This document shows, piece after piece, positions 1 to 26,018 of a stretch of 26,018 nt of DNA. Position numbers and translations under genes: made by a program. The stretch covers positions 3,189-29,206 of IMG/VR virus record IMGVR_UViG_3300030098_005213; one strand, 5' to 3'. This DNA is from a virus. Below the pieces are notes generated by a model. That model was not told the DNA's origin, made no database searches, and was given only the letters and a program-made list of their open reading frames with translations. Numbering within the stretch: the stretch's first letter is position 1; each line of letters opens with the position of its first letter.

Positions 1-302
1 TTTTTAATAGTAGGAGAAGCTGAATAATTATATTTTAAGAAATTTACTAGAGCTATTTCATTAGTTTTTTTACTTATTACTATTTTATTTAAGTTTACAA
101 ATAATTCTAAAAGCTTTTCTATTGTTTCTTTATTATATCCAGTATGATAAGTAATTTGCCTTACTGAAATTTCATAAATTCCACATTGTTTAACATTAGG
201 ATTTGTAAGTAAGTATATATAAAAATACTTCTGCTCTGGAGTAAGATCTAAAATTAGTGGATCGTTCCAAAATGTAGTATGTATCTGCCTGTATTTCGCC
301 AT
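1..302 (-). CDS. Phage replication initiator, N-terminal winged-helix part (partial)
   Basis: This gene starts at an ATG at 302 and runs off the left edge, so only about 100 codons are visible. The translation begins MAKYRQIHTTFWNDPLILDL and continues with an LTPEQKYFYIYLLTNP segment, then CGIYEIS and RQITYHTGYNKETI. This pattern (a W-x-D-P near the start, a leader helix ending LLTNP, then a CGIYEIS strand/helix) is what I know from winged-helix N-terminal domains of phage replication initiators and DnaD-like replisome organisers. Such proteins bind the phage origin and recruit the helicase. The rest of the gene, where a DnaD-type or primase/helicase-loader domain would lie, is outside the window. 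It follows the OB-fold gene at 322-633 by 19 bp, consistent with a replication operon. The family assignment is from motif memory and moderately sure. Confidence 0.6.
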   Translation of the reverse strand, partial: MAKYRQIHTTFWNDPLILDLTPEQKYFYIYLLTNPNVKQCGIYEISVRQITYHTGYNKETIEKLLELFVNLNKIVISKKTNEIALVNFLKYNYSASPTIK

Positions 303-321
303 CTGTTTTTGTATTTAATTA

Positions 322-633
322 TTAAAAAGGAGGATTATTAGATAGATGTATTTCTTCCTCTAAAACTATATTTTTTATATTTAATGTATTAAAAAATTTG
401 TCCTTCCACTCATTAGATTTGATGTAAAATTCTATTTTTACATATCTATCATCTTTTATATTTTCTTTATGAATAGCTATAGATTCTTTTCCGAAAATCT
501 CAAACTGATGCTTATGATCAAAACCTGTATCAGTTTCTACTATTGTTATATACATTTTTTCAAATGTATCGCCTGTTTTACTTTCTATAGTTTCTGTTCT
601 ACTATTTAAAATTTTACCTCTTATTTTATACAT
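322..633 (-). CDS. OB-fold single-stranded DNA-binding-like protein (DUF3127-like)
   Basis: A 103-aa protein of mainly beta pattern. It opens MYKIRGKILNSRTET, has a central FEKMYITIVETD and FEIFGKES strand pair, then DDRYVKIEFYIKSNEWKDKFFN. The tail is acidic and ends NNPPF. This strand order and the short acidic tail with a terminal aromatic resemble DUF3127, a small OB-fold family common in Bacteroidota and their phages, and more generally the SSB C-terminal tip that recruits partners. The likely role is protecting ssDNA during phage replication or recombination. The start overlaps the end of the upstream DnaA-like gene by 8 bp, so the two are probably translationally coupled. DNA binding is inferred from fold resemblance; no catalytic motif is expected or seen. 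Confidence 0.6.
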   Translation of the reverse strand: MYKIRGKILNSRTETIESKTGDTFEKMYITIVETDTGFDHKHQFEIFGKESIAIHKENIKDDRYVKIEFYIKSNEWKDKFFNTLNIKNIVLEEEIHLSNNPPF

Positions 634-1066
634 AACTTTTTTTATTTAATTTAATTTTTAATATATCTATTTGATGCTCTAATCTGTTGTTTTCGTTTAG
701 GATTTGTTCGTATTTAATATCCAAATCGTAATCGTGCTTCGTTTTTATTATACTATATGCAAGATCTAGCTCTGCATTTTTCCAGTTTTTAAACTGAGTG
801 TAAGTATTTTCATATTGTCTAGTATAGTGATTTATTATTTGGTATTCCGAATCGTGATGTTTTAACATTTCTACTATATGATCTTTACTTTTATTTAATA
901 ACTCTGAAATATCATAAATACTAAAATTCTCTTTATAGTGCAAAATATGATAAACCATACTCCTAGCATCTTTAGTTCTAGGATTGCTAAATATATTATA
1001 GAAATCTGCAAATTTCACTTTATTATAGAAACAGCATATCCTTATTAATCTATCTATTGATTGCAT
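626..1066 (-). CDS. DnaA domain IV-like helix-turn-helix protein with C-terminal coiled coil
   Basis: A 146-aa protein. Residues about 30-75 (ARSMVYHILHYKENFSIYDI, then LLNKSKDHIVEMLKHH) follow the layout of the TrpR-like DNA-binding domain IV of the replication initiator DnaA: a long helix, a short helix with the S-x-x-(D/E)-I-x-x-L-L pattern, then a recognition helix starting K-(S/R)-(K)-D-H. There is no AAA+ ATPase part, so it could bind DnaA-box-like sites but not act as a full initiator. The last 50 residues are charged and helical with a leucine/isoleucine periodicity (YEQILNENNRLEHQIDILKI), likely a dimerising coiled coil. It sits between a possible annealing protein and an OB-fold protein, so origin recognition or transcriptional control are the likely roles. 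An unrelated HTH regulator is the main alternative. Confidence 0.5.
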   Translation of the reverse strand: MQSIDRLIRICCFYNKVKFADFYNIFSNPRTKDARSMVYHILHYKENFSIYDISELLNKSKDHIVEMLKHHDSEYQIINHYTRQYENTYTQFKNWKNAELDLAYSIIKTKHDYDLDIKYEQILNENNRLEHQIDILKIKLNKKSYV

Positions 1067-1286
1067 AGTTTTTGTTTACATCATAATTTTTACCCTCTTT
1101 AAACATCCAGTATTCATCTGATTTATATTCAAAATAATCTATAATTTTATAATCGCTATCCTTTTGAATATCTAGAAGTATATTTAAAAGCTCCTTCTTA
1201 CTGCATTTAACTAAAAGATCTCCAGTATTACAAATAATAATCCAGCTTCTTACAAAAGTATAATCGTTTATATAACTATTTCTCAT
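1050..1286 (-). CDS. Small hypothetical phage protein
   Basis: I do not recognise this protein. From the ATG at 1286 it is 78 aa (MRNSYINDYTFVRSWIIICN). An in-frame ATG at 1307 would add seven residues. I prefer 1286 because it gives an 11-bp overlap with the preceding gene, like its neighbours, rather than a 32-bp overlap. The sequence has two Cys residues near the middle (IICNTGD and VKCSKKE), a central amphipathic helix (KKELLNILLDIQKDSD) and an aromatic-rich end (DYFEYKSDEYWMF). It overlaps the downstream HTH gene by 17 bp, so it belongs to the same early/replication operon. No membrane segment or signal peptide is seen. Confidence 0.5.
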   Translation of the reverse strand: MRNSYINDYTFVRSWIIICNTGDLLVKCSKKELLNILLDIQKDSDYKIIDYFEYKSDEYWMFKEGKNYDVNKNYAINR

Positions 1287-1692
1287 TTTTAAACTCCTCT
1301 GCTTCATCTTCTGAATAAAATCCGTGTAAATTCGCTAATTTTAAAATAGTTCTAGCTAGTGCCCTTTTTTCGGCCATCGCTACTGGATAGGGATTGCTAC
1401 AATTTTTAGGGGATGCTTCTCCGAAACTTTGTATCATTATTTTTGGCCTCGGCTGTGGATTGTTTTCATTTCCATCAAATAAAACCCCAGTAGCTAAAAC
1501 TACTGCATAGCGACAATCATCTGATATTTTTTCTAGTTTGAAATTAACCTGAGCTCCTAGCTTATTTTGTATCTTCTGTATTCCAGATCTAGTTATTATA
1601 GGTTTTTCTTTTGATCCAAATTTTAATATAAATATATCATCTTTTTCTAAAGAGTATTTTTTATATATTTCTTTTAAGTTTTCTCTATTCAT
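1276..1692 (-). CDS. Possible single-strand annealing / recombination protein
   Basis: A 138-aa protein. The middle carries alternating strands (CRYAVVLATGVLFDG, then a proline-rich turn and KIMIQSFGEASP). The C-terminal third has a conserved-looking helix, YPVAMAEKRALARTILKLAN, followed by LHGFYSEDEAEEF. A YP-x-x-MA-x-KRA-x-x-R helix with a downstream (Y)SEDEA segment is, as I remember it, typical of small phage annealing-type recombinases related to ERF/Rad52-like proteins. The neighbourhood (an OB-fold ssDNA-binding-like protein and a DnaA-like protein) fits a replication/recombination cassette. Its length is short for ERF or Rad52, so it may be a minimal or divergent member or another conserved early protein. 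The functional call is tentative; the ORF itself is secure, with ATG at 1692 and overlaps on both sides. Confidence 0.45.
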   Translation of the reverse strand: MNRENLKEIYKKYSLEKDDIFILKFGSKEKPIITRSGIQKIQNKLGAQVNFKLEKISDDCRYAVVLATGVLFDGNENNPQPRPKIMIQSFGEASPKNCSNPYPVAMAEKRALARTILKLANLHGFYSEDEAEEFKNEK

Positions 1693-1831
1693 AATATGAG
1701 TGAAGTTTATTTAATTTTGATAATAATTTTAATTTAACTAAATCTAGAGCTACCTTATCGGCTGCTTCTAGTTTTTCATTATGCAAAACGGATAGCAATA
1801 AGCTATAATCCCTTGTATCTAGTTTTTCCAT
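1685..1831 (-). CDS. 48-aa small hypothetical protein
   Basis: A short ORF from an ATG at 1831 to TAG at 1685-1687. It translates as MEKLDTRDYSLLLSVLHNEK, then LEAADKVALDLVKLKLLSKL and NKLHSYYE. It is almost entirely helical, rich in Leu and Lys. It fills the space between two genes, ending 8 bp inside the start of the annealing-like gene at 1692 and beginning 3 bp before the end of the gene at 1834-2136. This tight tiling, matching the neighbours, is the best reason to think it is real. No family is recognised. Confidence 0.5.
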   Translation of the reverse strand: MEKLDTRDYSLLLSVLHNEKLEAADKVALDLVKLKLLSKLNKLHSYYE

Positions 1832-1833
1832 TT

Positions 1834-2136
1834 TTATAAATTTTTATAAGTTTCTATTTCTGTTTTAAAATCTAAAGAGTTTTCTTTGCTCATAAATAAA
1901 TTAACATTTTTATATTTAGATTCTATATTAGTGCTAGTTTCATCTATATCTGAAAGCCAATCTATATATATTTCTTTTAACTTTTCTTCTAAATCTTCTA
2001 GCTTTTCTATTTCTGTTTTAGGTACTTCTAGTTTATATAAAATAGTTTTCTTTTCTATTGTTGTTAATCTATTAAATAAAAAAAGAATAGTATTTAAAAC
2101 ATCTTTTTTAAATTGTGTATCAAGTTTTGTAGCCAT
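1834..2136 (-). CDS. Hypothetical helical protein, 100 aa
   Basis: Unrecognised. It begins MATKLDTQFKKDVLNTILFL and is predicted mostly alpha-helical, with a strongly charged middle (PKTEIEKLEDLEEKLKEIYI) likely to form a coiled coil or helical hairpin. The end is Asn/Lys/Ser rich. No signal peptide, membrane segment or metal motif is seen. The start ATG at 2136 overlaps the end of the preceding gene by 17 bp and the stop lies 2 bp before the 48-aa gene, so it is part of the same leftward operon. Context only suggests an early or replication-associated accessory role. Confidence 0.55.
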   Translation of the reverse strand: MATKLDTQFKKDVLNTILFLFNRLTTIEKKTILYKLEVPKTEIEKLEDLEEKLKEIYIDWLSDIDETSTNIESKYKNVNLFMSKENSLDFKTEIETYKNL

Positions 2137-2446
2137 CTATTTTTCCTTTTATTATTATTTCTAATTTTCTCCAGTCATTTTTGTAGTGATAAAATAATAC
2201 ATCATAACAAAAATCCGTAGAATATAAATAACATATCTGCCGATTAAATAATTTTTTAATACCCTGCATCCCTTTTTTTCTGTAAACATCTATAATATAT
2301 TTATCGTTTATTATTTTAGTTGCTGTTCTTCTTTTAGTTTTTAATAGCAATCTTATTGCTCTATCTCTTTCTGCATCTTCTTCCATTGATATCTGATTCA
2401 CATCTAATAAGTAATAAAGCTCATCCATAAAATTATATATATTCAT
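2120..2446 (-). CDS. Hypothetical basic protein, 108 aa
   Basis: Unrecognised. I take the ATG at 2446 (MNIYNFMDELYYLLDV) as the start; the ORF can be extended two codons to a TTG at 2452. An acidic N-terminal helix (ISMEEDAERDRAIRLLL) is followed by a basic segment (KTKRRTATKIINDK) and a Tyr/Cys/Phe-rich part (CYLYSTDFCYDVLFYHYKND). The mixed basic helix pattern could bind nucleic acid, but no definite fold is seen. It ends with TGA and overlaps the next gene by 17 bp. A TATATTTG sequence sits immediately upstream at 2450-2457 but is too close to the start codon to be its promoter unless a later start is used. Confidence 0.5.
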   Translation of the reverse strand: MNIYNFMDELYYLLDVNQISMEEDAERDRAIRLLLKTKRRTATKIINDKYIIDVYRKKGMQGIKKLFNRQICYLYSTDFCYDVLFYHYKNDWRKLEIIIKGKIDGYKT

Positions 2447-2476
2447 ATACAAATATATATAGATAAGCTTTATTAC

Positions 2477-2683
2477 TTACCCCCTTTCCTTTAGCTTAGC
2501 TATTAGGTTTACCTGCATATCCATCAGCTCTTTAAAGCTATGAGTAAAAAGCCACTCTTTAACATCGTTTGCAGGTTTAATTTTTTCAAAATTTACAGGA
2601 GTATTATTTAATACTCTTAATCTGATTATTTCATTGACTAGCCAAACTTTCATATTTGGCCTTAAAGTTTCTGTAAAGCTCAT
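2477..2683 (-). CDS. Hypothetical small protein, 68 aa
   Basis: Unrecognised. The sequence begins MSFTETLRPNMKVWLVNEII and ends with a helix (FKELMDMQVNLIAKLKERG). The composition looks like a genuine folded helical protein. It is the first gene after an 88-bp gap that follows the phosphoesterase gene, and its leader (AACAAAAACAAAAACT before ATG) is A-rich without a Shine-Dalgarno sequence. It could therefore be first in the early/replication transcript. No domain is assigned. Confidence 0.5.
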   Translation of the reverse strand: MSFTETLRPNMKVWLVNEIIRLRVLNNTPVNFEKIKPANDVKEWLFTHSFKELMDMQVNLIAKLKERG

Positions 2684-2747
2684 AGTTTTTGTTTTTGTTT
2701 ACACAAATTAACCTAAAAGCTTTTTAAAAGCAAAATTTTTAGAGTGT

Positions 2748-2760
2748 TTGTTATTAACAA
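2748..2760. promoter_or_regulatory. Inverted repeat TTGTTA-t-TAACAA, operator-like
   Basis: The 88-bp gap 2684-2771, between the phosphoesterase and the left-hand gene block, contains a 13-base inverted repeat with arms TTGTTA and TAACAA and one central base. The same half-site occurs in the palindrome at 23814-23827 and once at the candidate promoter near 22504. A weak AT stem (GCTTTT/AAAAGC) lies beside it at about 2719-2731. I read this gap as the regulatory boundary between the late/lysis genes and the early block, but no convincing -7 box is seen in it. Confidence 0.3.
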
Positions 2761-2771
2761 TCAGATGTTTA

Positions 2772-3521
2772 TTATTTAGAATAGCTTATTTTAGATCCTA
2801 AATCCATAGGTATAAAAAATCCTACCTTCCCATCTATAACTATTCCACATCCTAAAGTAGGTTTTTTACTAAAATTACGGCCGTACTGAAAGGCCAAATC
2901 ATTTACAGATATAAGGCATCCAACATTAAGAGCAAAACACAGCTCTTTATAAGAAGCTCTATAGTTTACACCTCCTGAGCTGTGAGTGTGGCCTATTACT
3001 ACTGATTGCCTGTAGTCCTGCATAAAATTTACAGCAGCATTAGCTCCAGATTTTCCTGTGCCGTGTAAATATAAAACTTTATCTATTTCTAGATAATCGT
3101 GAGTTTTCCATCCTTTTGGAAAATTCCAAGATTCAGCAAAAGTTTTATAAAATTTCTTAGGGATAGAGTGTTTTAACATTCGCCTATTTATGAGCTGATC
3201 GTGATTGCCCATCATTAAATCACCTTCAGGAAAAACTTTAAAAAGCTTATCTATATCCTTTTGTGCTAGCTCTGCTTCTTTTCCTCCTGAAACCATATCG
3301 CTATCTTTTTCCCAGAAGCTCCAAGCTGAGCCATCTACTAAATCTCCGATATGGATTATTCTATTAGCTTGAAACTGATTAAACACTTCATAAACCCAGT
3401 TAAGATGCCCCTTTTTAGAATAAGGATAGTGAGTATCTGAAATTATCCCTACTACATTACTTCGCTTATGATAATTTATAAACTCATAAACAAATTTATT
3501 TAATCGTGGCCTGTAGCTCAT
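2772..3521 (-). CDS. Calcineurin-like metallophosphoesterase
   Basis: A 249-aa protein with the full set of metallophosphoesterase motifs in order: GIISDTHYP (Asp29, His31), IHIGDLVDG (Asp60), MMGNHDQL (Asn106, His107), LYLHGTGKSG (His153) and VVIGHTHSS (His178, His180). These residues normally hold a two-metal centre that hydrolyses phosphomono- or diesters; the substrate cannot be told from sequence. The length is normal for a single-domain enzyme. There is no signal peptide, so it should act in the cytoplasm. It overlaps the holin gene by 4 bp and is the last gene of the lysis cluster before a regulatory gap. Possible roles are nucleotide or nucleic-acid end processing, or removal of cyclic-nucleotide defence signals; the latter is speculation. 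Confidence 0.85.
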   Translation of the reverse strand: MSYRPRLNKFVYEFINYHKRSNVVGIISDTHYPYSKKGHLNWVYEVFNQFQANRIIHIGDLVDGSAWSFWEKDSDMVSGGKEAELAQKDIDKLFKVFPEGDLMMGNHDQLINRRMLKHSIPKKFYKTFAESWNFPKGWKTHDYLEIDKVLYLHGTGKSGANAAVNFMQDYRQSVVIGHTHSSGGVNYRASYKELCFALNVGCLISVNDLAFQYGRNFSKKPTLGCGIVIDGKVGFFIPMDLGSKISYSK

Positions 3522-3919
3522 TTATTTTTTTTTGCCGATCCTCCAAAAAAGAAATCAATAATAGTATTTACTTTAGCACTCATAGCTCCAAATAAAGTAC
3601 TTATAAAACTGATTTCAAACTCCCCTAAATTAATATCTCCTATTACAAAATATCTAGCTAAAACAAAACTTAAAATAAAATATGCTATAGTAAATATAGT
3701 AGCTAGTATTTTTTGTATATTACTATCATCTTCGTACATCTCCCTAGCACTTTTGCGATCTTCCACTTCCAGCTGATACATAGTTTGTTTATGGTTTTTT
3801 AAAACTTTTTCTAGTTCAATTTTAAGCTGTTTTTTTTCTTCTTTTGTGCTAGTTAAATCATCTATAGCTTTATTTACATCTATTTTTAATCCTCCAAAAA
3901 TTTTATTAATTAAACTCAT
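3518..3919 (-). CDS. Holin, 3TM-type family
   Basis: A 133-aa protein with an N-terminal charged, coiled-coil-like region (STKEEKKQLKIELEKVLKNH, then a RKSAREMY segment). Two hydrophobic helices follow at about 70-92 (ILATIFTIAYFILSFVLARY) and 101-123 (FEISFISTLFGAMSAKVNTI), then the end DFFFGGSAKKNK. The order of charged arm, D-x-x-x-x-QK, membrane segments and terminal FFFGGS-x-x-K is that of the 3TM holin family (Holin_3TMs) found in many tailed phages. It would open the inner membrane to let the adjacent M15 endolysin reach the peptidoglycan. It overlaps both the endolysin gene and the phosphoesterase gene by 4 bp, a tight translational coupling. Confidence 0.8.
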   Translation of the reverse strand: MSLINKIFGGLKIDVNKAIDDLTSTKEEKKQLKIELEKVLKNHKQTMYQLEVEDRKSAREMYEDDSNIQKILATIFTIAYFILSFVLARYFVIGDINLGEFEISFISTLFGAMSAKVNTIIDFFFGGSAKKNK

Positions 3920-4413
3920 AAAGATTTGATTTGTTTTATTCTTTTATATTTAGTTTTATTATTATCATCTTTGTAAGCTTCTAGTAATTGATTTCTATTA
4001 TTTTCCTTTGAATAGCTAATATGAATCCATCTATAATCAAACTCATTAATCATCTGATCAAACTCTATTCCCAGCTCTAGTATGGTATTAAATATCTTTT
4101 TATTATTTGCTTTTCCATTAGCATCTATAAAATGTATATCAGCTGCTTCTCCTCTTGTGTGCTGAGAAGTTGCTATATATTCTCCTTTTATTATTTTATA
4201 AGCTCCTCCTATTGCTTTATTTAATTGTTTACTTCTCCATCCTGAATTTATTTTAATAGGGCCTATACAATCTCTAAGTGGTTGCAAAACTTTTAAACAA
4301 AGTAGCTGCATATTTCTTATATGTTCTTTAGGAGGATTAAGCTCTAGCCCCCTTCTTTTAGCTACATTAGATTTAAGAAATTCTTTTAAAGTAAAATTTT
4401 TAGATAATAACAT
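3916..4413 (-). CDS. Endolysin, peptidase M15 family (DD/LD-carboxypeptidase type)
   Basis: A 165-aa enzyme that would cut peptide cross-links of peptidoglycan. It starts with the usual FTLKEFLKS, then INSGWRSKQLNKAIGG. The zinc-binding motif SQHTRGEAADIHF supplies His85 and Asp92, and RWIHISYS supplies His131. The substrate-side Arg60 of GWR is present. The length matches single-domain M15A phage lysins, and there is no signal peptide, so release depends on a holin. It lies between a thioredoxin-fold-like membrane protein and the 3TM holin. The C-terminal tail (NNKTKYKRIKQIKSL) is basic and may help bind the envelope. The family call is firm; whether it cuts DD or LD bonds is not readable. 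Confidence 0.9.
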   Translation of the reverse strand: MLLSKNFTLKEFLKSNVAKRRGLELNPPKEHIRNMQLLCLKVLQPLRDCIGPIKINSGWRSKQLNKAIGGAYKIIKGEYIATSQHTRGEAADIHFIDANGKANNKKIFNTILELGIEFDQMINEFDYRWIHISYSKENNRNQLLEAYKDDNNKTKYKRIKQIKSL

Positions 4414-4415
4414 TT

Positions 4416-4796
4416 TTAATTAAATTTATTCAACAATAATACATCTACCTCTTTTTGTAGTTTTTTGTATGTTATATCAAAATCAAGCATAATAGTACTT
4501 TTAAATCTTTTTACTTCTTCTCCATTATTAAATAAAATTATAGTAGGTTGTTTTATATTATACTCATCCATATATTTTAAATTATCGCAAAGTATTATAG
4601 TATAACATTTACAATTTTTTATCTTATCTAAATCTTCTATAAAATTTTCTTCATTCCAAGATGTGTTAAATTCTACTATCGCTATTTCATTTTTTAAAAA
4701 GTTTTGTCCTGATGCCGTAGCAGCAAATAGAAACACTAAAAGCATTAATAATATATATATATAATTACTTATATCTTTTTTATTTATTGATTTCAT
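4416..4796 (-). CDS. Membrane-anchored thioredoxin-fold-like protein lacking CxxC
   Basis: A 126-aa protein with an N-terminal hydrophobic helix at about 12-29 (NYIYILLMLLVFLFAATASG) that could be a signal anchor or cleaved signal peptide, placing the rest in the periplasm. Residues 38-100 look like a thioredoxin fold: strand IAIVEFNTSWNEENF, a helix, strand YTIILCD, then KQPTIILFNNGEEVKRF with the expected cis-proline at Pro84 before the beta hairpin. The position normally holding W-C-G-P-C is SWNEEN, so the redox cysteines are missing; an unrelated CKC lies at 62-64. It should therefore be a binding or scaffold protein rather than an oxidoreductase. It overlaps the upstream membrane protein gene by 17 bp and sits just before the endolysin. 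The fold call is by motif, not a search. Confidence 0.55.
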   Translation of the reverse strand: MKSINKKDISNYIYILLMLLVFLFAATASGQNFLKNEIAIVEFNTSWNEENFIEDLDKIKNCKCYTIILCDNLKYMDEYNIKQPTIILFNNGEEVKRFKSTIMLDFDITYKKLQKEVDVLLLNKFN

Positions 4797-5052
4797 ATAA
4801 CCGATCTTCTATTTTATTTAATTGATCTTTTATTTCTTCTATTCCTTCTGCATTTTGCATAATCGTTGTTCTAATAAGTTCATCTTTTATTTCCCACTCA
4901 GTAGCAGATAGAGTAGGTTTAGGAAGTTGTTTAGCATCTTCTATATCAGCTTGTAGCTTTGAATACATAGAAACCATAGAAATAACAAATCCTATTATAA
5001 TTATTAAAGTTTTTAAATCTAGTGTAAGATTAGTAGATTCTGATATTTTCAT
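4780..5052 (-). CDS. Small one-TM protein with coiled coil, candidate lysis accessory or second holin
   Basis: A 90-aa protein with one hydrophobic helix at about 14-30 (LKTLIIIIGFVISMVSMYSK). A linker and a C-terminal heptad-like segment follow (EGIEEIKDQLNKIEDRLYEI), predicted to form a coiled coil. One TM plus a coiled coil, next to an endolysin, is seen in small holin-like and BhlA-like phage proteins and in some inner-membrane spanin subunits. There is no lipoprotein box, so it would not be an o-spanin. It overlaps the outer-membrane-like gene by 4 bp and the thioredoxin-like gene by 17 bp. The role is inferred mainly from position. Confidence 0.5.
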   Translation of the reverse strand: MKISESTNLTLDLKTLIIIIGFVISMVSMYSKLQADIEDAKQLPKPTLSATEWEIKDELIRTTIMQNAEGIEEIKDQLNKIEDRLYEINK

Positions 5053-6086
5053 TTTATTAATATGTTTAGCCCTAGTTTTAAATTATAATTTTTCCTATCT
5101 AAATAACTTAAATAGATTCCTTCTATATGTAAAGAAAGCAATTTAGTTATCTTCTTTTGTATTAAAGCTCCTATTTCATAATCTACAGCTCCACTATATC
5201 CAAAAGTAGTAAGAGCTTTATTATATGGAAGTAAATTACTCCATACTAAAGTATGATAGTTGTTTTTGTGAGTATAATAACTAAATCCAAATACTGCCGA
5301 TAGTGTTTGCTGTGTTCCTATTTTGTTTATTTCTGCTGAATTATAGCTATTTACAATCTCTGAATAGTGATACTCCATAAATTCTGTATTGCTGCTAGCT
5401 ATAGTATCTCCAGCTGGATTAGTCCAATAATTATAAGTATCTTCTGTTCTATCTACAAATCCATTACTATTAATATCATTCCAATAAAAAAAGGAGTTAT
5501 AACCTAGAGAATTAGCAACATCTATATAATCGCCTCCACTAAAAACACTAAAAGGATTTAATCCGTAAGCTGGATGAAACCTTATAACAGCTCCAGCTGA
5601 AAGCTGAAGCTTATTTATATCCTTTTTTATTCTTAAATCTATTTCTCTATATTTTAGATCTATTCCTTCTAGGTTTGTACTCTGAAGCTTTACTATATAA
5701 AAGCTCCCTAAATACCTTAAAAAATAATCCTGATTGATATATTTAATTCCTCTATCTCTTATATTTTCGTAAGAAATTAAATACTCTAAGCCATTTATTA
5801 AAGCTGATCTAAATTTTCCGTAATCTGTTTCCGTTCCATCTTTATAGCTTTTTCTATCTTCCATTGATAACCTAGCTAATCTCCTTACTCCGAAAGCATA
5901 TCTATAATTAAACTTATTATCTCTAGTTGTTTCTGTAAGTATTCCATCTTTAATAGTATAAGTATTAACCTCATCTAGCACTTGATTTACTCCTATAGTG
6001 CCGTAAATAGTAGAGTATTTAAAAACTCCTAGCTGAGCATTAGCTGCTAAGCATATAAAAAATAATATATATATAATCTTTTTCAT
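5049..6086 (-). CDS. Secreted outer-membrane beta-barrel-like protein with an EF-hand-type loop
   Basis: A 345-aa protein with a clear Sec signal peptide (MKKIIYILFFICLAANAQ; cleavage likely after ANA or at AQ, a common Bacteroidota pattern). The mature part has many alternating aromatic/polar strands (FNYRYAFGVRRLARLSMEDR, QLSAGAVIRFHPAYG, TLSAVFGFSYYTHKN, LLSLHIEGIYLSYL) and ends in a strand with a terminal LNILIK. Together these suggest an outer-membrane barrel or similar surface protein. Residues 204-215 (DINSNGFVDRTE) match a DxNxNGxxDxxE calcium-binding loop. It follows the tail genes with an ATAATG overlap and precedes the lysis genes. Possible roles are altering the host surface late in infection, superinfection exclusion or outer-membrane disruption. 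A virion protein is less likely because of the signal peptide. No family is recognised. Confidence 0.6.
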   Translation of the reverse strand: MKKIIYILFFICLAANAQLGVFKYSTIYGTIGVNQVLDEVNTYTIKDGILTETTRDNKFNYRYAFGVRRLARLSMEDRKSYKDGTETDYGKFRSALINGLEYLISYENIRDRGIKYINQDYFLRYLGSFYIVKLQSTNLEGIDLKYREIDLRIKKDINKLQLSAGAVIRFHPAYGLNPFSVFSGGDYIDVANSLGYNSFFYWNDINSNGFVDRTEDTYNYWTNPAGDTIASSNTEFMEYHYSEIVNSYNSAEINKIGTQQTLSAVFGFSYYTHKNNYHTLVWSNLLPYNKALTTFGYSGAVDYEIGALIQKKITKLLSLHIEGIYLSYLDRKNYNLKLGLNILIK

Positions 6087-10064: not shown

Positions 10065-10085
10065 TTTTTAATTAATTTAATTTAT

Positions 10086-14178: not shown

Positions 14179-14202
14179 ATTTTAAATTTTTTTAAATTAT
14201 TA

Positions 14203-18197: not shown

Positions 18198-18198
18198 C

Positions 18199-18870: not shown

Positions 18871-18888
18871 TTCAAACCTTTATAAAAT

Positions 18889-18921
18889 AAAAAAGGAGGA
18901 GGCAATCCCTCCTCCCTTTTT
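18889..18921 (-). terminator. Strong GC hairpin terminator after major capsid gene
   Basis: The 73-bp gap between capsid and connector genes holds an 8-bp GGAGGAGG/CCTCCTCC stem with a short loop, extended by an A5/T5 pairing with one bulged C. It is flanked by A and T tracts on both sides, so it could act in both directions. In such an AT-rich genome this is a conspicuous terminator. It likely reduces read-through from the highly expressed capsid gene into the connector and tail genes. Confidence 0.8.
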
Positions 18922-18943
18922 ACACATTAATAAATTAAATATA

Positions 18944-20188
18944 CTAAGCTAGTTTACAAGTATATTTACAAAATGATTTACCATCTGCAACAGCCCAATC
19001 GTAGTGTTGATTTACTACTAATCTTACTGCATTTTCTGTAGCAGCAGAATAAGGATCTACTAATATATTAGTAGGCCCAAAAGCAGCAAAATAAACTCTT
19101 GAGAAATCCCCAAACAAACCATCAAAAGTAGCATTAGCTCCTGATACACTAGCTGGAGCTGAGCTAAACCAGCCATTATATCCAGCCAATCTATCATCTT
19201 GATATAATGGAGAAACTGATCCTACTAAGGAGTTCTTTTTAATTTCACTATACCCAGCAAAGCTATTTACAAAACCTAGATTACCATCTAATCCGTGATC
19301 ATTAGCTAAATCTTGTATAGCAGAAAGTAAATCTTCTCCTACAGATGTTCCACTAGCAAAAGTATTTCCTGTAGTAGCATCAATAACATTAGCATCTGCT
19401 ACAATAGCAGCAGGCCCAGCAACAGCAGAAGTACTAGCAAACATATTAGCATCTATTTTAGCTGCTATTTGTCGGCCCATATCTCGCATAATCGCAGCTT
19501 CAGCTCCTGTGCCGTTCTGCATTACTATTACATTACTTAGATTAGCATATCCGTTAATTCTCTTAGGAGATAAAGTAATTTTACTAAAAGCAGTAGATGT
19601 ATCAGTTCCTGCTGCATTTTCAGCAGCCCACTCTACAGCATTTGCTCCTGTTATAGGTACAATAGTATCAGCTGCTAAAGTTCCTAAATTAGTTAAACCT
19701 ACTTTATTATATAAAGCTCCTTCTACTAAAGCATCAGCGAAAGCATTTACAGCTACTGGAGCTATATTTTGGCCTATTACAGCTCTTTGCTCTGCTTTAT
19801 TTGTCATCCAGCTAGGAAGCCCGATGCCGTTTAAAGTGCTTCGGTTTTCCTTTTCAGCTTCTTTGTGCATCTCAGCTTCTATACCTTTAAGGCCTCCAGC
19901 TTGCACATCTCTTACAGCTTTAAATAAGCTCCACGATTTCGCTTCTTTTTCAGCAATATCCTGATTGGTTTGTACTGACATATTAACAGCTATAGATTTA
20001 TTTAGCTGCTCTTGTCTTTCAGCTATTGCAATTTTTTTATCTAAAGCTTTTATCTCAGTATCAAAACCATCCCAGCTATTTTGCTCCTCATCAGTAAGAT
20101 CTCTATCTTCTGATTTTGCAGTATCCAATATCGCCTCCATAGTTTCCACTAGTTCAGCTCTATCTTCTTTTAAATTAATTGAGTTCAT
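18944..20188 (-). CDS. Major capsid protein, HK97 fold
   Basis: A 414-aa capsid subunit. Residues 1 to about 70 are a charged helical delta/scaffold region (LKEDRAELVETMEAILDTAK, then LTDEEQNSWDGFDTEIKALD). The HK97-type core follows: FADALVEGALYNKVGLTNLG, ITLSPKRINGYANLSNVIVM (P-domain and spine region), MRDMGRQIAAKIDANMFAST, and DLANDHGLDGNLGFVNSFAG. The end is VVNQHYDWAVADGKSFCKYT. The delta domain would be removed by the fused protease just upstream. The pattern K-(R/L)-x-x-(Y/G)-x-x-(L/V)-(S) before a long helix is typical. It is followed by a terminator. The ATG at 20188 is close to the protease stop. Confidence 0.9.
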   Translation of the reverse strand: MNSINLKEDRAELVETMEAILDTAKSEDRDLTDEEQNSWDGFDTEIKALDKKIAIAERQEQLNKSIAVNMSVQTNQDIAEKEAKSWSLFKAVRDVQAGGLKGIEAEMHKEAEKENRSTLNGIGLPSWMTNKAEQRAVIGQNIAPVAVNAFADALVEGALYNKVGLTNLGTLAADTIVPITGANAVEWAAENAAGTDTSTAFSKITLSPKRINGYANLSNVIVMQNGTGAEAAIMRDMGRQIAAKIDANMFASTSAVAGPAAIVADANVIDATTGNTFASGTSVGEDLLSAIQDLANDHGLDGNLGFVNSFAGYSEIKKNSLVGSVSPLYQDDRLAGYNGWFSSAPASVSGANATFDGLFGDFSRVYFAAFGPTNILVDPYSAATENAVRLVVNQHYDWAVADGKSFCKYTCKLA

Positions 20189-20189
20189 T

Positions 20190-21290
20190 TTAATACGATT
20201 TTTTAAGTTTTAATAATTTTAATTTTCTATTTAACAAATCCATCTTAATAAGATAATCTTCTTGTTTCTTGTTTTCTTGTTTTTCTTTTGCAGCTCTATA
20301 AGTTAAAAAACTTCTTTTGCCTACTTCAGCATCAGGATATGCTGGATATACTACAGGAGATACATCTAATAATCTTCCTACTTTTTTTATAGTTCTTATA
20401 GTGTTTCCTTCTTCATCCTCATCCCAGCTATCATCCTCCACTATAAAACCGAAAGAAGATTGATTAACATCTCCTCTTTCTAAACTTACCATTAAATCCC
20501 TTCCGTATGTAGTATCAGGAGCTGTAAAATTATATTTTAAACCTCTTTCATCTACTGATAAGCTTAGAGTTCCTGCTGTAGTTCTTCCTAGTATATAATT
20601 AGGATCGTGATTAAATAAAGCTCTTACATCATTTTGCAAAACACTATCAAAAGCTTCAGGAGCTATTTTTTCTCTGAATCCTCCCAGATTTTCTGATAGA
20701 GCTGGATTGCCTTCAGCATCAGTAAAAACTGAAGCATATCCTACTACTTCTCTACTTTCAGAGTTTGCTACTCTTATTTCTGAATTTATAAAATTTCTTC
20801 TTTCTAATCCTTCTATATTATTTTTATTTCTATTATTTATATTTTCTTTATCCATATCTATTATTTTTACATTTTCTGAATCTTCAAAATCCTGAAAATT
20901 TTTATGATAATTTTCTATATATTCTAGCCACTCATCAGGCCGTTCATTTTTTGCTATTTCTAGGCATTTTTCTTTATTTCTTTTTAAATAAATTATCTCA
21001 GCTCCCAGCTCATCTACTATTTTTTGCCTATTTTCCTTAAAAGGAGTGCTATTAATAATCCAAGCTGTGATATTTTTATCTTCCTTTAATTTTTTATATA
21101 TAGTGTTTCTTATTTCAAAAACATAATCTTTAATATGTTTCAGATGTATATGAGATCTATTAATAGTAATAGCTTGATGTATAGTATCAAAATCAAAAAT
21201 CAAATCTTCGCTATTAGCATTACTTCTAACATAAGTAGATTTTCCACTACAGGAGCTCCCTAAAACTAAATAAATTTTATTTTCCTTCAT
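20190..21290 (-). CDS. P-loop kinase-like domain fused to HK97-type prohead protease
   Basis: A 366-aa protein with two domains. Residues 1 to about 150 form a P-loop nucleotide kinase-like domain: IYLVLGSSCSGKSTYVRSN (Walker A, 11-19), LIFDFDTIHQA (Asp33/Asp35), TAWIINSTPF and EIIYLKRNKEKCLEIA, as in AAA_33/polynucleotide-kinase-like proteins. Residues about 165-340 are the U35 prohead protease: REVVGYASVF, FREKIAPEAF, the catalytic His228 in ALFNHDP, and Ser278/Ser279 in VNQSSFGF, with a VSPVVYPAYPDAEV end. The protease cleaves the capsid delta region. The ATG at 21290 lies 14 bp inside the portal gene and one continuous frame covers both domains, so the fusion looks real. The job of the kinase half is unknown; RNA/DNA end modification or control of maturation are possible. 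Confidence 0.85.
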   Translation of the reverse strand: MKENKIYLVLGSSCSGKSTYVRSNANSEDLIFDFDTIHQAITINRSHIHLKHIKDYVFEIRNTIYKKLKEDKNITAWIINSTPFKENRQKIVDELGAEIIYLKRNKEKCLEIAKNERPDEWLEYIENYHKNFQDFEDSENVKIIDMDKENINNRNKNNIEGLERRNFINSEIRVANSESREVVGYASVFTDAEGNPALSENLGGFREKIAPEAFDSVLQNDVRALFNHDPNYILGRTTAGTLSLSVDERGLKYNFTAPDTTYGRDLMVSLERGDVNQSSFGFIVEDDSWDEDEEGNTIRTIKKVGRLLDVSPVVYPAYPDAEVGKRSFLTYRAAKEKQENKKQEDYLIKMDLLNRKLKLLKLKKSY

Positions 21291-22464
21291 CTGTGTTTGT
21301 TTTTCCTACTTCTCCTAAATTTAAAGGCACATAATAATCATCGCCTTTTTTTACTTTATTCATATCCTCCATTGATCGGATGTCATTAGGAGATAAAGCT
21401 CCTACATTAAATAGTTTAGTATAGTAATCAGCTCTACTATTTACATCCCCTCTTAAAAGCTCTGTAGTTCTAAATTTACAAAAATGAGTAGTTTGCTCTT
21501 TAGCACTTAAAAGCTTCCTATTTAGCTCCTGCTCCCAGTTTATTAAATAAGGAGTTAAAGAGTATTTAGCAAACTCCAGAGATTGCTGTTCTATGTTTGA
21601 GTATGTTGATCGGCTAAGATCTCCAAGTAGATGAGGAGGGCATCTAAAAATTCTGCTTATTTCAGCTACTGAAAAATTACGGCTATCTATAAAAGCTGCA
21701 TCTTGTAAAGGCATCGCTATAGGTTTAAATTTAGTTCCATTTTCTAAAACTGCCGTGCTGTGAGAATTTGATAATCCAGAGTATCTGCTGTTCCAGCTTT
21801 GCCTCAATCTATTTGCTGCCTCATCAGTTAAAACTCCTCCTACTTCTAAAACTCCTGATAGATTAGCTCCTTGAAAAAAGTTTGATCCGTATCGCTGAGT
21901 AGCCAATCCAAATCCTACAGCTTCTTTACAAGCTTGAATAGGAGATTTGCCTACTAAACCATCAAAAGAAAGGCCTACTATATGCAGAATCTCCATAGAG
22001 CTAAAAGTGCCTAAATCTTTTACTTTGTAATATAATTCGCCATCATCTCCTAAAACTGGATCTACTTTATCTGGCTGTAATAATTCTAACGATATAGGCC
22101 TACTTCCTCCATTTCTTACTATTAAACAATAAGCATTTCCCCAAAGAAGTAAGCTATTCATCATCGTATTTCGCCAAGTAAAGGAAGTATATTTATTATT
22201 TGGAGCAGTTGAAATAAGATTGTTTAAAGGGATTTTTTCATCTATATATTTAGAGCCATCTTTTTCTTTGCGATATACATTAAGAGGCAAACTGCTTATA
22301 GTTTCAGATAATAATCTAACAGCAGCCCAAACAGCAGGAAGGCCTATAGAGTTATCTTGCGAAACTCTAACACCACTAGAGCTGCCCCCTACAGCTCCTA
22401 AAGTAAAGCTATTAGCTGCTCTTTTTTCCTGTTTAGGTTTATAAAAAAAATCTAATAATCCCAA
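21277..22464 (-). CDS. Portal protein, HK97 family
   Basis: A 395-aa portal subunit, a dodecamer through which DNA is packaged and ejected. The N-terminus MGLLDFFYKPKQEKRA is typical and is read from a TTG at 22464; no ATG fits it. Downstream: LPAVWAAVRLLSETISSLPL, TSFTWRNTMMNSLLLWGNAY, ELYYKVKDLGTF, EILHIVGLSFDGLVGKSPIQ, then ATQRYGSNFFQGANLSGVLE and FRCPPHLLGD. The end is a helical barrel part (KKGDDYYVPLNLG). All are hallmarks of the Phage_portal HK97 group. The leader lies after a terminator and a TATATTTG box, so it is probably the first gene of the head operon. The gene overlaps the kinase-protease gene by 14 bp. Confidence 0.92.
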   Translation of the reverse strand: MGLLDFFYKPKQEKRAANSFTLGAVGGSSSGVRVSQDNSIGLPAVWAAVRLLSETISSLPLNVYRKEKDGSKYIDEKIPLNNLISTAPNNKYTSFTWRNTMMNSLLLWGNAYCLIVRNGGSRPISLELLQPDKVDPVLGDDGELYYKVKDLGTFSSMEILHIVGLSFDGLVGKSPIQACKEAVGFGLATQRYGSNFFQGANLSGVLEVGGVLTDEAANRLRQSWNSRYSGLSNSHSTAVLENGTKFKPIAMPLQDAAFIDSRNFSVAEISRIFRCPPHLLGDLSRSTYSNIEQQSLEFAKYSLTPYLINWEQELNRKLLSAKEQTTHFCKFRTTELLRGDVNSRADYYTKLFNVGALSPNDIRSMEDMNKVKKGDDYYVPLNLGEVGKTNTDEGK

Positions 22465-22503
22465 AATAGAGTATTTAAGAAAGTGTAATTAAATTAATAA
22501 TAA

Positions 22504-22511
22504 CAAATATA
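22504..22511 (-). promoter_or_regulatory. Candidate promoter -7 box TATATTTG for head operon
   Basis: The minus strand reads TATATTTG followed by TTATTATTAATTTAATT, 40 bp upstream of the portal start. It matches the Bacteroidota TAnnTTTG box. It lies directly after a terminator, which is a sensible place for a new transcript. The same twelve bases, TATATTTGTTAT, occur at 23820-23831. No clear -33 TTG is seen; the upstream region is a T run. Confidence 0.5.
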
Positions 22512-22516
22512 CAAAA

Positions 22517-22546
22517 AAAAAAGAGGTATTTCTACCCCTCTTTTTT
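22517..22546 (-). terminator. Bidirectional hairpin terminator before portal gene
   Basis: Ten-base arms AAAAAAGAGG (22517-22526) and CCTCTTTTTT (22537-22546) pair perfectly, with inner GGTA/TACC able to pair as an alternative. T tracts occur on both sides whichever strand is read. It closes the transcript of the five small genes upstream (stop at 22570). Confidence 0.75.
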
Positions 22547-22569
22547 ATTATTTTGGATTGGTTTTTGTA

Positions 22570-22854
22570 CTATAAACTAAGCTCTAATTGTTTTTTATTT
22601 GGATTCCACTCATAATAAAACAAAGTGTAAAAAGTACCTCTATTAAATTTATCTCTAAATTGCTCTTTATGTAGTAGAGGAGTGTTTCTAGTTATGCTCA
22701 TTTTTTTATCTCCATAATTAACCTGAATAGGTATAAATCCGTATCTGCTATATAGCTTCTTTTGTGGGATAGCTATTAAAGTTTTACTTTTCAGATCAGG
22801 GCAAACCCTATATCCTTTGATTAATTTTTTGATGCTGTAGTAGTTCATTTTCAT
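22570..22854 (-). CDS. Hypothetical basic protein, 94 aa
   Basis: Unrecognised. It begins MKMNYYSIKKLIKGYRVCPD and has a beta-looking middle (KTLIAIPQKKLYSRYGFIPI, QVNYGDKKMSI) and an aromatic end (FYTLFYYEWNPNKKQLELSL). The protein is strongly basic overall, so nucleic-acid binding is possible but not shown. It overlaps the upstream zinc-ribbon-like gene by 47 bp, which is long; a start at the second Met (22848) would shorten this only slightly. It is the last gene of the small-gene group, just before a terminator. Confidence 0.5.
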   Translation of the reverse strand: MKMNYYSIKKLIKGYRVCPDLKSKTLIAIPQKKLYSRYGFIPIQVNYGDKKMSITRNTPLLHKEQFRDKFNRGTFYTLFYYEWNPNKKQLELSL

Positions 22855-23032
22855 AAATTTTGTTTTTCTGTTTGTTTATTTTGTCCTGATTATATTGTTT
22901 CATATTAGCTAAATAGCTATCAGGTTTATTGCTATCTAGTATAAAATTTCCTTTACATATAAAACAGCCATCTTTTTTTATAAGTGATACCCTCTGGCAT
23001 CTCATACAAAATCTAAATTTTTGATACTCCAT
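22808..23032 (-). CDS. Small zinc-ribbon-like protein
   Basis: A 74-aa protein. Two Cys pairs, FCMRCQRV (8-13) and GCFICKGN (22-28), are spaced by about ten residues as in a short zinc ribbon or zinc-finger knuckle. A charged helical tail (KQYNQDKINKQKNKIYENEL) follows. It could bind DNA, RNA or a protein partner. Small Cys4 proteins near the terminase are found in many phages, sometimes beside HNH nucleases, but no HNH motif is seen here. The start abuts the stop of the preceding gene. The metal-binding reading is from Cys spacing only. Confidence 0.5.
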   Translation of the reverse strand: MEYQKFRFCMRCQRVSLIKKDGCFICKGNFILDSNKPDSYLANMKQYNQDKINKQKNKIYENELLQHQKINQRI

Positions 23033-23241
23033 TATATATAATTTATAGCTTTTATTAATCCTTCTCTACTTATAGGCAAATCTTTTATCACTACTTTTGG
23101 ATCTTTTTTAAGAGCTATTATTTCTTTTCTATGTTCTTTTTTTAATTTGCTTACTTTGCTTACAGCTTTTTTTCTATTTGAAAATCCTTCTATTTGATAT
23201 CCATTTTCTAAGCTTTCTGAGTGTACTATATATATTTTCAT
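23032..23241 (-). CDS. Hypothetical small basic protein, 69 aa
   Basis: Unrecognised. It starts MKIYIVHSESLENGYQIEGF, then a very basic helical region (NRKKAVSKVSKLKKEHRKEI) and a short acidic/hydrophobic end (LPISREGLIKAINYI). The first strand, turn and basic helix could be a small alpha/beta fold. It abuts the neighbours (1-bp gap upstream, 1-bp overlap downstream), so it is co-transcribed with the small-gene group. Confidence 0.5.
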   Translation of the reverse strand: MKIYIVHSESLENGYQIEGFSNRKKAVSKVSKLKKEHRKEIIALKKDPKVVIKDLPISREGLIKAINYI

Positions 23242-23242
23242 C

Positions 23243-23560
23243 TTATCTATATTTTATTTTTTCTACTAATTGAGTTCCTTCATTAATAAGCTCTATTATT
23301 TTCTCCCAATCTCCCTCATCTGCTAACCACTCTAAATCATCTGCATAAGCTTTAATTTGAAAATTACTAAAGCTAAAGCCGTGAGTAAATAGAGTAAATT
23401 CTGAAAATTGATTTTTTTTGAAAGTAAAACGATATCTATTATCGCACATTACAGAGCATAGATCTAAAACTACAGCTCTTATTTTATTTTGTTCTTTTTC
23501 ATTAGGCAAATTAAATTTAGGAGGATTAGATTTTAACTCCTGATAAGTACTTTTTTCCAT
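23243..23560 (-). CDS. Hypothetical protein, 105 aa
   Basis: Unrecognised. The sequence MEKSTYQELKSNPPKFNLPN is followed by a helix (EQNKIRAVVLDLCSVMCDNR), strands YRFTFKKNQFSEFTLFTHGF, and an acidic helix (ADDLEWLADEGDWEKIIELI). The composition is that of a soluble folded protein with net negative C-terminal half. Its leader is nearly identical to that of the next upstream gene (39 bp, two differences), so the two may be expressed alike. No domain is assigned. Confidence 0.5.
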   Translation of the reverse strand: MEKSTYQELKSNPPKFNLPNEKEQNKIRAVVLDLCSVMCDNRYRFTFKKNQFSEFTLFTHGFSFSNFQIKAYADDLEWLADEGDWEKIIELINEGTQLVEKIKYR

Positions 23561-23591
23561 TGTATTATTTTTTAAATTAGTATTTCTGTTT
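23553..23591. repeat. 39-bp duplicated leader, copy A
   Basis: This segment covers the ATG and 5' leader of the 105-aa gene. It matches 23774-23812, the leader and ATG of the 62-aa gene, at 37 of 39 positions. The leader is A-rich on the minus strand and lacks a Shine-Dalgarno sequence. The coding regions diverge after the first codons. Confidence 0.8.
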
Positions 23592-23592
23592 A

Positions 23593-23781
23593 TTAAACTT
23601 CAAACTCTAAATTTCTCATCTCTAACTCATCCATAAAAGTAAAAAAATGATTTTCCGATTTAAAAGTAAATACATTAGTAAACTCCATTTTAAAATCTAA
23701 CTGCAAATCTGCTGCTAATTTTTGGGCCTGTAAAGTATCTCTTAATGAAGTTTCAATTTTAAAAAGTTCTAAATTTTCCAT
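23593..23781 (-). CDS. Hypothetical small protein, 62 aa
   Basis: Unrecognised. The protein is MENLELFKIETSLRDTLQAQ followed by KLAADLQLDFKMEFTNVFTF and ending FFTFMDELEMRNLEFEV. It is acidic, with a helix then a hydrophobic aromatic segment. As the first gene after the palindrome and TATATTTG box at 23814-23831 it is the most likely first gene of the small-gene transcript. Its leader is duplicated in front of the 105-aa gene. It could be a small regulatory or inhibitor protein, but nothing in the sequence shows this. Confidence 0.5.
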   Translation of the reverse strand: MENLELFKIETSLRDTLQAQKLAADLQLDFKMEFTNVFTFKSENHFFTFMDELEMRNLEFEV

Positions 23782-23812
23782 TGTATTTATTTTTAAATTA
23801 GTATTTCTGTTT
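23774..23812. repeat. 39-bp duplicated leader, copy B
   Basis: Second copy of the leader repeat (see 23553-23591), containing the ATG of the 62-aa gene. Two adjacent mismatches (a/t and t/a) are the only differences. It ends two bases before the palindrome at 23814. Confidence 0.8.
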
Positions 23813-23813
23813 G

Positions 23814-23831
23814 TTTGTTATAACAAATATA
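23814..23831 (-). promoter_or_regulatory. TATATTTG box overlapping a perfect palindrome TTTGTTATAACAAA
   Basis: On the minus strand TATATTTG (23831-23824) matches the Bacteroidota -7 consensus, and its TTTG begins a perfect 14-base palindrome (23814-23827). An operator overlapping the -7 element would let a dimeric regulator block transcription. A start about 5-7 bases beyond the box would fall in the palindrome and give a 5' leader of roughly 35-45 bases for the 62-aa gene. A clear -33 TTG is not visible; the region there is T-rich. Confidence 0.5.
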
Positions 23832-23860
23832 GCTCTTTTTTCCTTATAACCTAGCTTAAA

Positions 23861-23887
23861 AGTAAAAAAAGATTGTTTTTTTTTACT
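23861..23887 (-). terminator. AT hairpin after terminase gene
   Basis: Ten-base arms AGTAAAAAAA (23861-23870) and TTTTTTTACT (23878-23887) flank a 7-base loop. It lies 69 bp past the terminase stop. Read leftward it is followed by TTTTAAG. With almost no GC it is at best a weak terminator. The rest of the 174-bp gap 23782-23955 is AT-rich and holds only this, the promoter/operator and the leader repeat. Confidence 0.35.
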
Positions 23888-23955
23888 CTACCTCTGTTAA
23901 ATTTTTTGAAAGTTTTTTAGAATTTTTTACTTTTTAGGTATTTTATAGGAAAAAT

Positions 23956-25509
23956 CTAGATAAAAATTAGCCCCCTGCCTTCGTAAACTGACTGATTATC
24001 GCCTTCTATGGAGTTTAGATATTCAGCTAAAGCACATACTAAAGCTACTACTCCATCTATTTTATTAGTGCTTTTAGCTTTATTTGGTTTTATGTTCCCT
24101 GCTGGATCTTCTGTGATGTGCACATTATTAAACATCCATCTTAAAACTGGATTGCCTCCGTGGTTTATTTGTTTATTTAAAATAAGTTTTTCTAGTAGTT
24201 TAGTAGGAGCAGAAAGAGAAACAAATCCCATCCCTATCGGATTCATTTTTGCCCCATCGTTTATTAAATTTACTACTATTTGGGATGAGTTCCAGCGATC
24301 AAAACTACAGCTGATTATATTAAACTGCTCTGCTAGCTCTTTAAATTTTGCCTCTATAAAATTATAATCTTGCACATTTCCCCCTGTTTTAATTATATAT
24401 TTTTGATCTACCCAGCTTAAATAATCTACTCCATCTCCTACTCCCTGAGTATTTACTTTTTCCTCAGGTATGAAAAAATAAGGAAGCACATCAAAATTAT
24501 CATCTTCATCTGGAAAAATTAAAACTAGAGCACTTATATCCCTAGTAGAAGCTAAATCTAATCCTGCAAAACAATCCCTGCCTTTTAGCTTTTTAGCATC
24601 TATTGGAGATACATTACACTTCATAAAATCCTCATCTGTAATCCAAAGCGATTCCGATCCAGTCCAGATATTCAGATGCAATCTTTTAAAAGTATTTTGA
24701 AAACTAGGAGTAAGCTCAGCTTTTTTAAATTGCTGCTTAAAATAATCCTTTTTAATTATTGTACCATAAGCAGGATTAGCTTTTTTCCAAACCTCCTCAT
24801 CCTTCCAGTTATCATCCGTATCTGCTCTATATAATACAGGAAGAAAAGTATCATCTTTAATAATTCCATCTCTAACCTTACTAGCATACTCTGACATCTG
24901 AAAGCATAAACTTTGTTTATCGTATCCAGCAGTAGTGATAGCCATTATTAAGGGCTGCCTTCTAGCTCCTGTTGCAGTAGTGCAAACCTCCCAGAGATCG
25001 TTGGATTTCTGAGTGTGCAGCTCATCAAAAATTAAAGTACTTATATTCATTCCGTGGGCCGTGTTTGATTCTGAAGAAATAGCTTTATAAAAAGATCCTG
25101 TACTTTCTATAGTGATAGAATTTCTAAAAACTTTAGCTCTTTTATTTAGTTCTGGATTTTGAAGTACCATCTGCTTTGCTATAGAAAACACGATAGAAGC
25201 TTGACTACGATCAGCAGCAGCTGATATAATTTCCTGCCCTATTTCTCCAGAGCAGAAAAGCTGAAATAATACGATAGCTGCACAGAGGTTGCTTTTTCCA
25301 TTTTTTCTAGGTATTTCTATATAGCAAGTTCTATATTTTCTATAGCCGTTTTTATCTACCCATCCAAATAAGGGCCTTATTATTTCTTCTTTCTGAAACT
25401 CCTCTAAGATAAAAGGTTTTCCTCCTAGCTCCCCTTTAGTATGAGTAAGAAACTTCTCTATAAAAGCTACAGCTTTATCAGCTCTTTTTTTATCATATAT
25501 ATACTTCAT
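23956..25509 (-). CDS. terL: Terminase large subunit
   Basis: A 517-aa packaging motor of the Terminase_1 (HK97-like) type. The N-terminal ATPase has a Walker A variant YIEIPRKNGKSNLCAA (about 67-73), Walker B STLIFDELHTQ (about 158-164) and the coupling motif ITTAGYD (191-197). The C-terminal nuclease starts at CFAGLDLASTRDISALVLIF with the metal-binding Asp318, and continues SCSFDRWNSSQIV; the late DGVVALVCALAEYL gives another acidic residue. The length is normal. It cuts the concatemer and pumps DNA through the portal. It follows the methyltransferase gene by 12 bp. No small terminase subunit is recognised on either side in the window. Confidence 0.95.
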   Translation of the reverse strand: MKYIYDKKRADKAVAFIEKFLTHTKGELGGKPFILEEFQKEEIIRPLFGWVDKNGYRKYRTCYIEIPRKNGKSNLCAAIVLFQLFCSGEIGQEIISAAADRSQASIVFSIAKQMVLQNPELNKRAKVFRNSITIESTGSFYKAISSESNTAHGMNISTLIFDELHTQKSNDLWEVCTTATGARRQPLIMAITTAGYDKQSLCFQMSEYASKVRDGIIKDDTFLPVLYRADTDDNWKDEEVWKKANPAYGTIIKKDYFKQQFKKAELTPSFQNTFKRLHLNIWTGSESLWITDEDFMKCNVSPIDAKKLKGRDCFAGLDLASTRDISALVLIFPDEDDNFDVLPYFFIPEEKVNTQGVGDGVDYLSWVDQKYIIKTGGNVQDYNFIEAKFKELAEQFNIISCSFDRWNSSQIVVNLINDGAKMNPIGMGFVSLSAPTKLLEKLILNKQINHGGNPVLRWMFNNVHITEDPAGNIKPNKAKSTNKIDGVVALVCALAEYLNSIEGDNQSVYEGRGLIFI

Positions 25510-25521
25510 TTTTTTAACTCA

Positions 25522-26018
25522 TTATAATAGTTTTATTTGTGCCGTTTGCTGCTCTATTCTTTTAATAGTTTTTTTAAAATAACCTTCATCAATCTCCATA
25601 CCTACAAACTCTTTACAGCCATAATAAAAAGAAGCTATAGCACTTGATCCACTTCCTAGATGTGTATCTAAAATTCTAAAATCTTTACTAGCATAATTTT
25701 TTAATAACCACTCATAAAGCTTAACAGGTTTTTGAGTAGGATGTATTTTTTCTGCTGCTGAAGTGTTGCCTTCTAAATTTCCATAGTATCTATAATAAAA
25801 ACATCTAGCTACTTTATCTATACTAGTCCAAGCCAGCTCGCCATCTGAAAAATTAGGAACAGGATTCTCTTTATACCAAAAAATAAAACCTTTACATCCT
25901 CTATTTGCTTTATTAACTTTAAAGCTCCAGAGCTCAGGAAAATAATTACCTCCCCAAATTATCTGATCTTTACTTACTCTAAAAAGCTCATTAAAAAAAT
26001 CTATTCTGGGGGCATCTC
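25522..26018 (-). CDS. DNA methyltransferase, C-terminal part (partial)
   Basis: The frame is open from the right edge to a TAA at 25522-25524, giving about 165 residues of a longer protein. It reads DAPRIDFFNELFRVSKDQII then WGGNYFPELWSF. Further on come KGFIFWYKENP, the EKIHPTQKPVKLYEWLLKNY segment, and ILDTHLGSGSSAIASFYYGC with EFVGMEIDEGYF near the end. The TQKP helix followed by an F-x-G-x-G-type motif (here DTHLGSGS) is the C-terminal SAM-binding part of beta-type amino-methyltransferases (N6-adenine or N4-cytosine). The target-recognition region and the DPPY-type motif are largely outside the window. It lies 12 bp before the terminase gene. Its likely role is protecting phage DNA from host restriction, or marking it. 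Confidence 0.88.
   Translation of the reverse strand, partial: DAPRIDFFNELFRVSKDQIIWGGNYFPELWSFKVNKANRGCKGFIFWYKENPVPNFSDGELAWTSIDKVARCFYYRYYGNLEGNTSAAEKIHPTQKPVKLYEWLLKNYASKDFRILDTHLGSGSSAIASFYYGCKEFVGMEIDEGYFKKTIKRIEQQTAQIKLL

Follow-up and report, generated by a model that had tools for sequence, protein, structure and literature searches.

Phages are known to rid their genomes of orthodox Type II restriction sites, and about one viral genome in ten has lost such sites completely or almost completely, most of these genomes belonging to non-temperate phages (Rusinov et al. 2018, PMC6286503). As in these cases of site avoidance (PMC6286503), of which T7 is a classical one, it is short, mostly palindromic and Type II-like words that are missing from the dsDNA phage described here. 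The number of missing words is about 14 (non-nested) in 29 kb, compared with 6 in T7, 0–3 in four other isolates and 1 in a relative of this phage (G020), and the missing sets differ between close relatives. The phage resembles Cellulophaga phage phi39:1 in genome size (28.8 kb for phi39:1), in the order of the terminase, portal, protease and capsid genes, in its start regions and in a homologous capsid; however, protein identity is only ~30% over six orthologues, and phi39:1 has 41 copies of CATG, its missing words being mainly CCAGC, CTCAG and CTGAAG. The recognition site of NlaIII/FatI/IceA-type systems is exactly CATG, a word missing here, and FatI comes from Flavobacterium aquatile. DNA-modification genes known from phages (Mom, C5 and N6/N4 methyltransferases) are present here too, beside the terminase in members of the phage family, where they occur alongside extensive purging and are swapped among the relatives at a single slot. 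The genome is a strong new case of a known phenomenon, made unusual by how many words it lacks, by their turnover between close relatives and by the neighboring modification slot.

The window, that is, the whole stretch of DNA analyzed (26,018 bp), covers bases 3189–29206 of the 29,206-bp IMG/VR record IMGVR_UViG_3300030098_005213. Two runs of 10 Ns (record bases 2402–2411 and 3179–3188) suggest that the record is a scaffold. Nearly all genes of the window lie on the minus strand, and they encode a DnaD/replisome-organizer-like protein, a single-stranded DNA-binding protein (SSB) of the DUF3127 type (322–633, minus strand; PF11325, phrog_4932), a metallophosphoesterase, an M15 endolysin, tail proteins including a tape measure, a protease, and a major capsid protein whose closest isolate is phi39:1 (18944–20188, minus strand; PF05065). 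These are joined by the portal protein (21277–22464, minus strand; PF04860, 8e-108), the terminase large subunit TerL (23956–25509, minus strand; PF20441 and PF03354) and, adjoining the terminase, the C-terminal 164 aa of an N6/N4-type DNA methyltransferase (25522–26016, minus strand; PF01555, 1.8e-10; phrog_67), which extends off the end of the record. Outside the window, record bases 419–1096 encode another N6/N4 methyltransferase, for which no relative had a counterpart. The genome thus encodes two DNA methyltransferases, and it also encodes two HNH proteins. No integrase was found among the proteins scanned, which represent part of the ORFs of a possibly incomplete record.

An earlier note on this sequence had reported that CATG is wholly absent from the 26 kb, and an exact count bears this out: the window (positions 1–26018) holds 0 copies against ~30 expected from a second-order Markov model, despite containing 611 CAT and 142 ATG. 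In a codon-shuffle null, which keeps the protein sequence and codon usage, 30.6 ± 4.6 copies are expected in the window, with a minimum of 18 in 1,000 shuffles. Because codon-pair context is missing from this null, the Markov null and the relatives described below were used beside it. The absence extends to the remaining 3.2 kb, where the claim could have failed, so that the full record shows 0 copies against 35 expected. Taking elimination as an observed/expected ratio below 0.1 at more than 15 expected sites, CATG is therefore eliminated under both nulls (0 vs. 30–35). All three codon frames are empty. His codons followed by G are CAC in 16 cases and never CAT, as had also been pointed out; none of 188 Met codons is preceded by C; and the frame xCA|TGx does not occur.

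CATG is not alone in this respect. The window also lacks TCGA, ACGT, GCGC, ACGC, AGNCT, ACNGT, GTNAC, GGNNCC, AATATT, CTCTTC, GAGAC and CTCTC, all counted against the codon-shuffle and Markov nulls. With codon-shuffle expectations cross-checked by the Markov model, the counts are 0/30 for TCGA, 0/16 for ACGT, 0/32 for ACGC, 0/30 for AATATT, 0/65 for AGNCT, 0/21 for ACNGT, 0/15 for GTNAC, 0/11 for GGNNCC, 0/15 for CTCTTC and 0/14 for GAGAC; GCGC is likewise at 0, where the codon shuffle predicts 23 copies and the Markov model just 4. Four words (CCGC, CTCTC, TGCCA and GACC) have a single copy each in the genome. Lone survivors of nearly eliminated words are seen in the window for CCGC (9539), TGCCA (22995), GGTGA (3220), CACTG (6301) and GACC (14962), and such copies may have arisen by recent mutation, may mark variant strains or may be errors of the assembly. 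Overall, 47 4–6-mers (some of them nested) are eliminated in the real genome and none in ten codon-shuffled copies. The earlier note's reading of the CATG loss as synonymous selection against one palindromic tetramer thus stands as regards selection but not as regards a single tetramer, since at least 12 other motifs are equally absent.

The eliminated words fit an orthodox Type II profile, being short and mainly palindromic, although several asymmetric words are missing as well. Eliminated 4-mers are biased toward palindromes (odds ratio 11, P = 2e-9) in 14 genomes, whose kinship makes them less than fully independent. Many of the words are classical Type II recognition sites, and enzymes with matching sites include NlaIII/FatI, TaqI, MaeII, HhaI, HpyCH4III, MaeIII, NlaIV, SspI, EarI, BsmAI and AciI; we know of no enzyme for ACGC, GACC, CTCTC, TGCCA or AGNCT, nor for CAGC, which is eliminated in a relative (G018). 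The loss of AGNCT here may reflect two specificities rather than one, because AGACT (in G001, G006 and G007) and AGCCT (in G022) have been lost separately in relatives. CpG suppression was rejected as the cause of the loss of TCGA, ACGT, GCGC, CCGC and ACGC, since ACGA, ACGG, CCGA and GCGA all occur in the same genome, some of them more often than expected. AGCT and GGCC are strongly above the codon-shuffle null in this genome and in most close relatives of the subclade. Applied to T7, the same scan recovered the expected avoidance of GATC, CCAGG, AAGCTT and CTGCAG, and it found 3 eliminated words in Nonlabens phage P12024L, 0 in Flavobacterium phage 6H, 0 in KHP30 and 1 in sk1.

Relatives were found by searches with the portal, terminase and capsid proteins; they form an uncultivated phage family and several of them are fragments. 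Each relative has its own eliminated set. The check in related phages that had been proposed with the original observation finds CATG at normal frequency in close relatives (G001, G002, G003, G006, G009 and G016) and other words purged there; relatives of similar GC content and codon habits hold 25–105 copies, with 59 in G009. CATG is at zero in G007 (8.5 kb) and in G004 (4.8 kb, hence weak evidence), and the distant G023/G024 group has eliminated CATG, CCGG and GAGAC. GATC is eliminated in G016/G017 and in G022, and AATATT is the only eliminated word in G020. The list for G018 is longer than that for this genome and includes CTAG, GANTC, CTNAG and the asymmetric CAGC (0/78) and CCAG (1/66). 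Whole sets of eliminated sites distinguish phages at 79–91% TerL identity, including G003 and G007, which carry the same sample number. The TerL tree requires four changes in CATG state, and well-supported branches force at least two of them; the CATG-free state arose several times independently.

It is also evident from aligned orthologous codons that CATG has been lost site by site. None of the CATG sites of G002 (0/32), G003 (0/27) or G009 (0/48) is kept in this genome, while 31–43% of all 4-mers are kept in the same alignments, and the commonest replacement is the synonymous CATG to CACG. Selection against CATG is thus well supported by synonymous replacement, by loss at every aligned site and by the normal CATG content of closely related phages. 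Some words are kept by one genome and lost by its near relatives. AATATT is present in G009 at 45 copies against 48 expected, nearly all close relatives being without it, and G005, the TerL sister of G009, has 0 copies in 4.8 kb. CCAGA has been mostly lost by the near relatives, and within the close set this genome (G000) alone has it at normal frequency.

Beside the gene for the terminase small subunit, the relatives carry a variable slot with differing DNA-modification genes (L049:97-738, L046:12701-14011, L047:536-2703, L008:536-1756, L051:98-739, L053:584-1420 and L009:529-1371, where L049 and L050 are loci of G009 and L053 and L054 of G018). The slot holds C5 methyltransferases in G002, G003, G006 and G018 (the last matched only partly), Mom in G016, a PAPS-reductase-like protein in G003 and G007, and nothing in G001. 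N6/N4 methyltransferases with divergent middle parts occur in G009, G005 and this genome, where the gene at 25522–26016 occupies the slot on the side of the large subunit; a further homolog of this kind is found in G012. These observations suggest two answers to restriction, namely site removal and DNA modification. A trade-off between purging and modifying is hypothetical, hinted at by the full complement of AATATT in G009 and the retention of CCAGA in this genome. The idea that Mom explains the words kept by G016 is not supported: tested with (C/G)A(C/G)NY, the target of Mu Mom, the genome keeps GACCR and GACCY equally.

The pattern is very probably explained by repeated purging under host Type II restriction, with one of the enzymes specific for CATG and with hosts that were Bacteroidota-like. 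The earlier note had proposed avoidance of an NlaIII-type enzyme; Type II restriction is retained as the best explanation, but a single such enzyme cannot explain the genome, because CATG is one of at least 12 eliminated motifs. At least 12 specificities are many for one host, and the explanation therefore needs either several hosts or a long history. Other points speak against restriction as the agent: the searches described below found neither a host nor a CATG-specific enzyme, some eliminated words match no enzyme known to us, and the phage itself carries methyltransferases.

It is unlikely that the purge is a relic, left by an ancestor that met CATG restriction, in a phage whose present hosts lack it: the states of individual sites do turn over among close relatives, as with AATATT, back in G009 and at zero in G005, but with CATG at exactly zero in 29 kb, selection can hardly have been absent for long, given that new CATG sites arise all over the genome by single mutations. 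An enzyme of the phage itself, for instance a nuclease or a methyltransferase with a harmful CATG mark, is a still poorer candidate for the driving force. The two methyltransferases and two HNH proteins would offer such an enzyme; however, no one shared gene separates CATG-free from CATG-rich relatives, G009 combines a homologous methyltransferase with its many CATG copies, and the other eliminated words would demand many enzymes. That the base composition, the codon usage or the codon-pair context of this low-GC genome, most of which is coded on one strand, could have emptied it of CATG, with no selection on the tetramer, is scarcely credible and is ruled out for CATG. Codon-context bias does exist in the family, most subclade members having more AGCT and GGCC than the codon-shuffle null predicts, but two nulls keeping composition or codon usage predict 30–35 copies, relatives of similar composition are rich in CATG, and no tested word was lost from any codon-shuffled copy.

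As to the hosts under which restriction would have acted, a flavobacterium-like member of Bacteroidota is likely, judging indirectly from translation signals, kinship with phi39:1 and the SSB. Start regions are mostly without a Shine-Dalgarno motif and bear an A-rich block at −14 to −11, two features shared with phi39:1, to which the capsid is also related, and the DUF3127-type SSB is also annotated in P12024L. A search of the genome_contigs collection with a single portal sequence had no match, and a portal profile matched only proteobacterial prophages there at 26–37% identity, none of them close, which name no host. The NlaIII/IceA family (PF05315) had no match in 398 genomes of Pseudomonadota, not the likely host phylum, or in controls, a result that is no proof of absence and does not bear on Bacteroidota, and a literature search on FatI and on NlaIII in Flavobacterium yielded nothing usable.

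Under host restriction, the course of events was probably as follows. Recent hosts of this small tailed phage, probably flavobacterium-like Bacteroidota, would have carried a Type II enzyme cutting unmethylated CATG, and every CATG lost would have raised the chance of survival of the infecting DNA, so that substitutions, many of them synonymous, could build up until no copy was left. The same process would have stripped the genome of at least 12 other Type II-like sites, and related lineages that met different enzymes would have lost different words. Words would stay or return in lineages that were unexposed, or perhaps shielded by an acquired modification gene. More speculatively, and with less confidence than for restriction itself, it is possible that the eliminated words form a lineage-specific and fast-changing record of the restriction specificities of uncultured hosts, some of them for words that match no enzyme known to us (AGNCT; CAGC in G018), coupled to a swappable modification slot in which an acquired modifier lets purged words return.

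The phage family offers a natural experiment on escape from restriction, in which one can measure how fast purging proceeds and how far it can be reversed, and its variable modification slot permits a direct test of a trade-off between site removal and site protection. Moreover, the eliminated sets predict which enzyme specificities uncultured hosts have, and they might be of use in matching phages to their hosts. The sequence of this genome looks like a log of the host defences that it has encountered.
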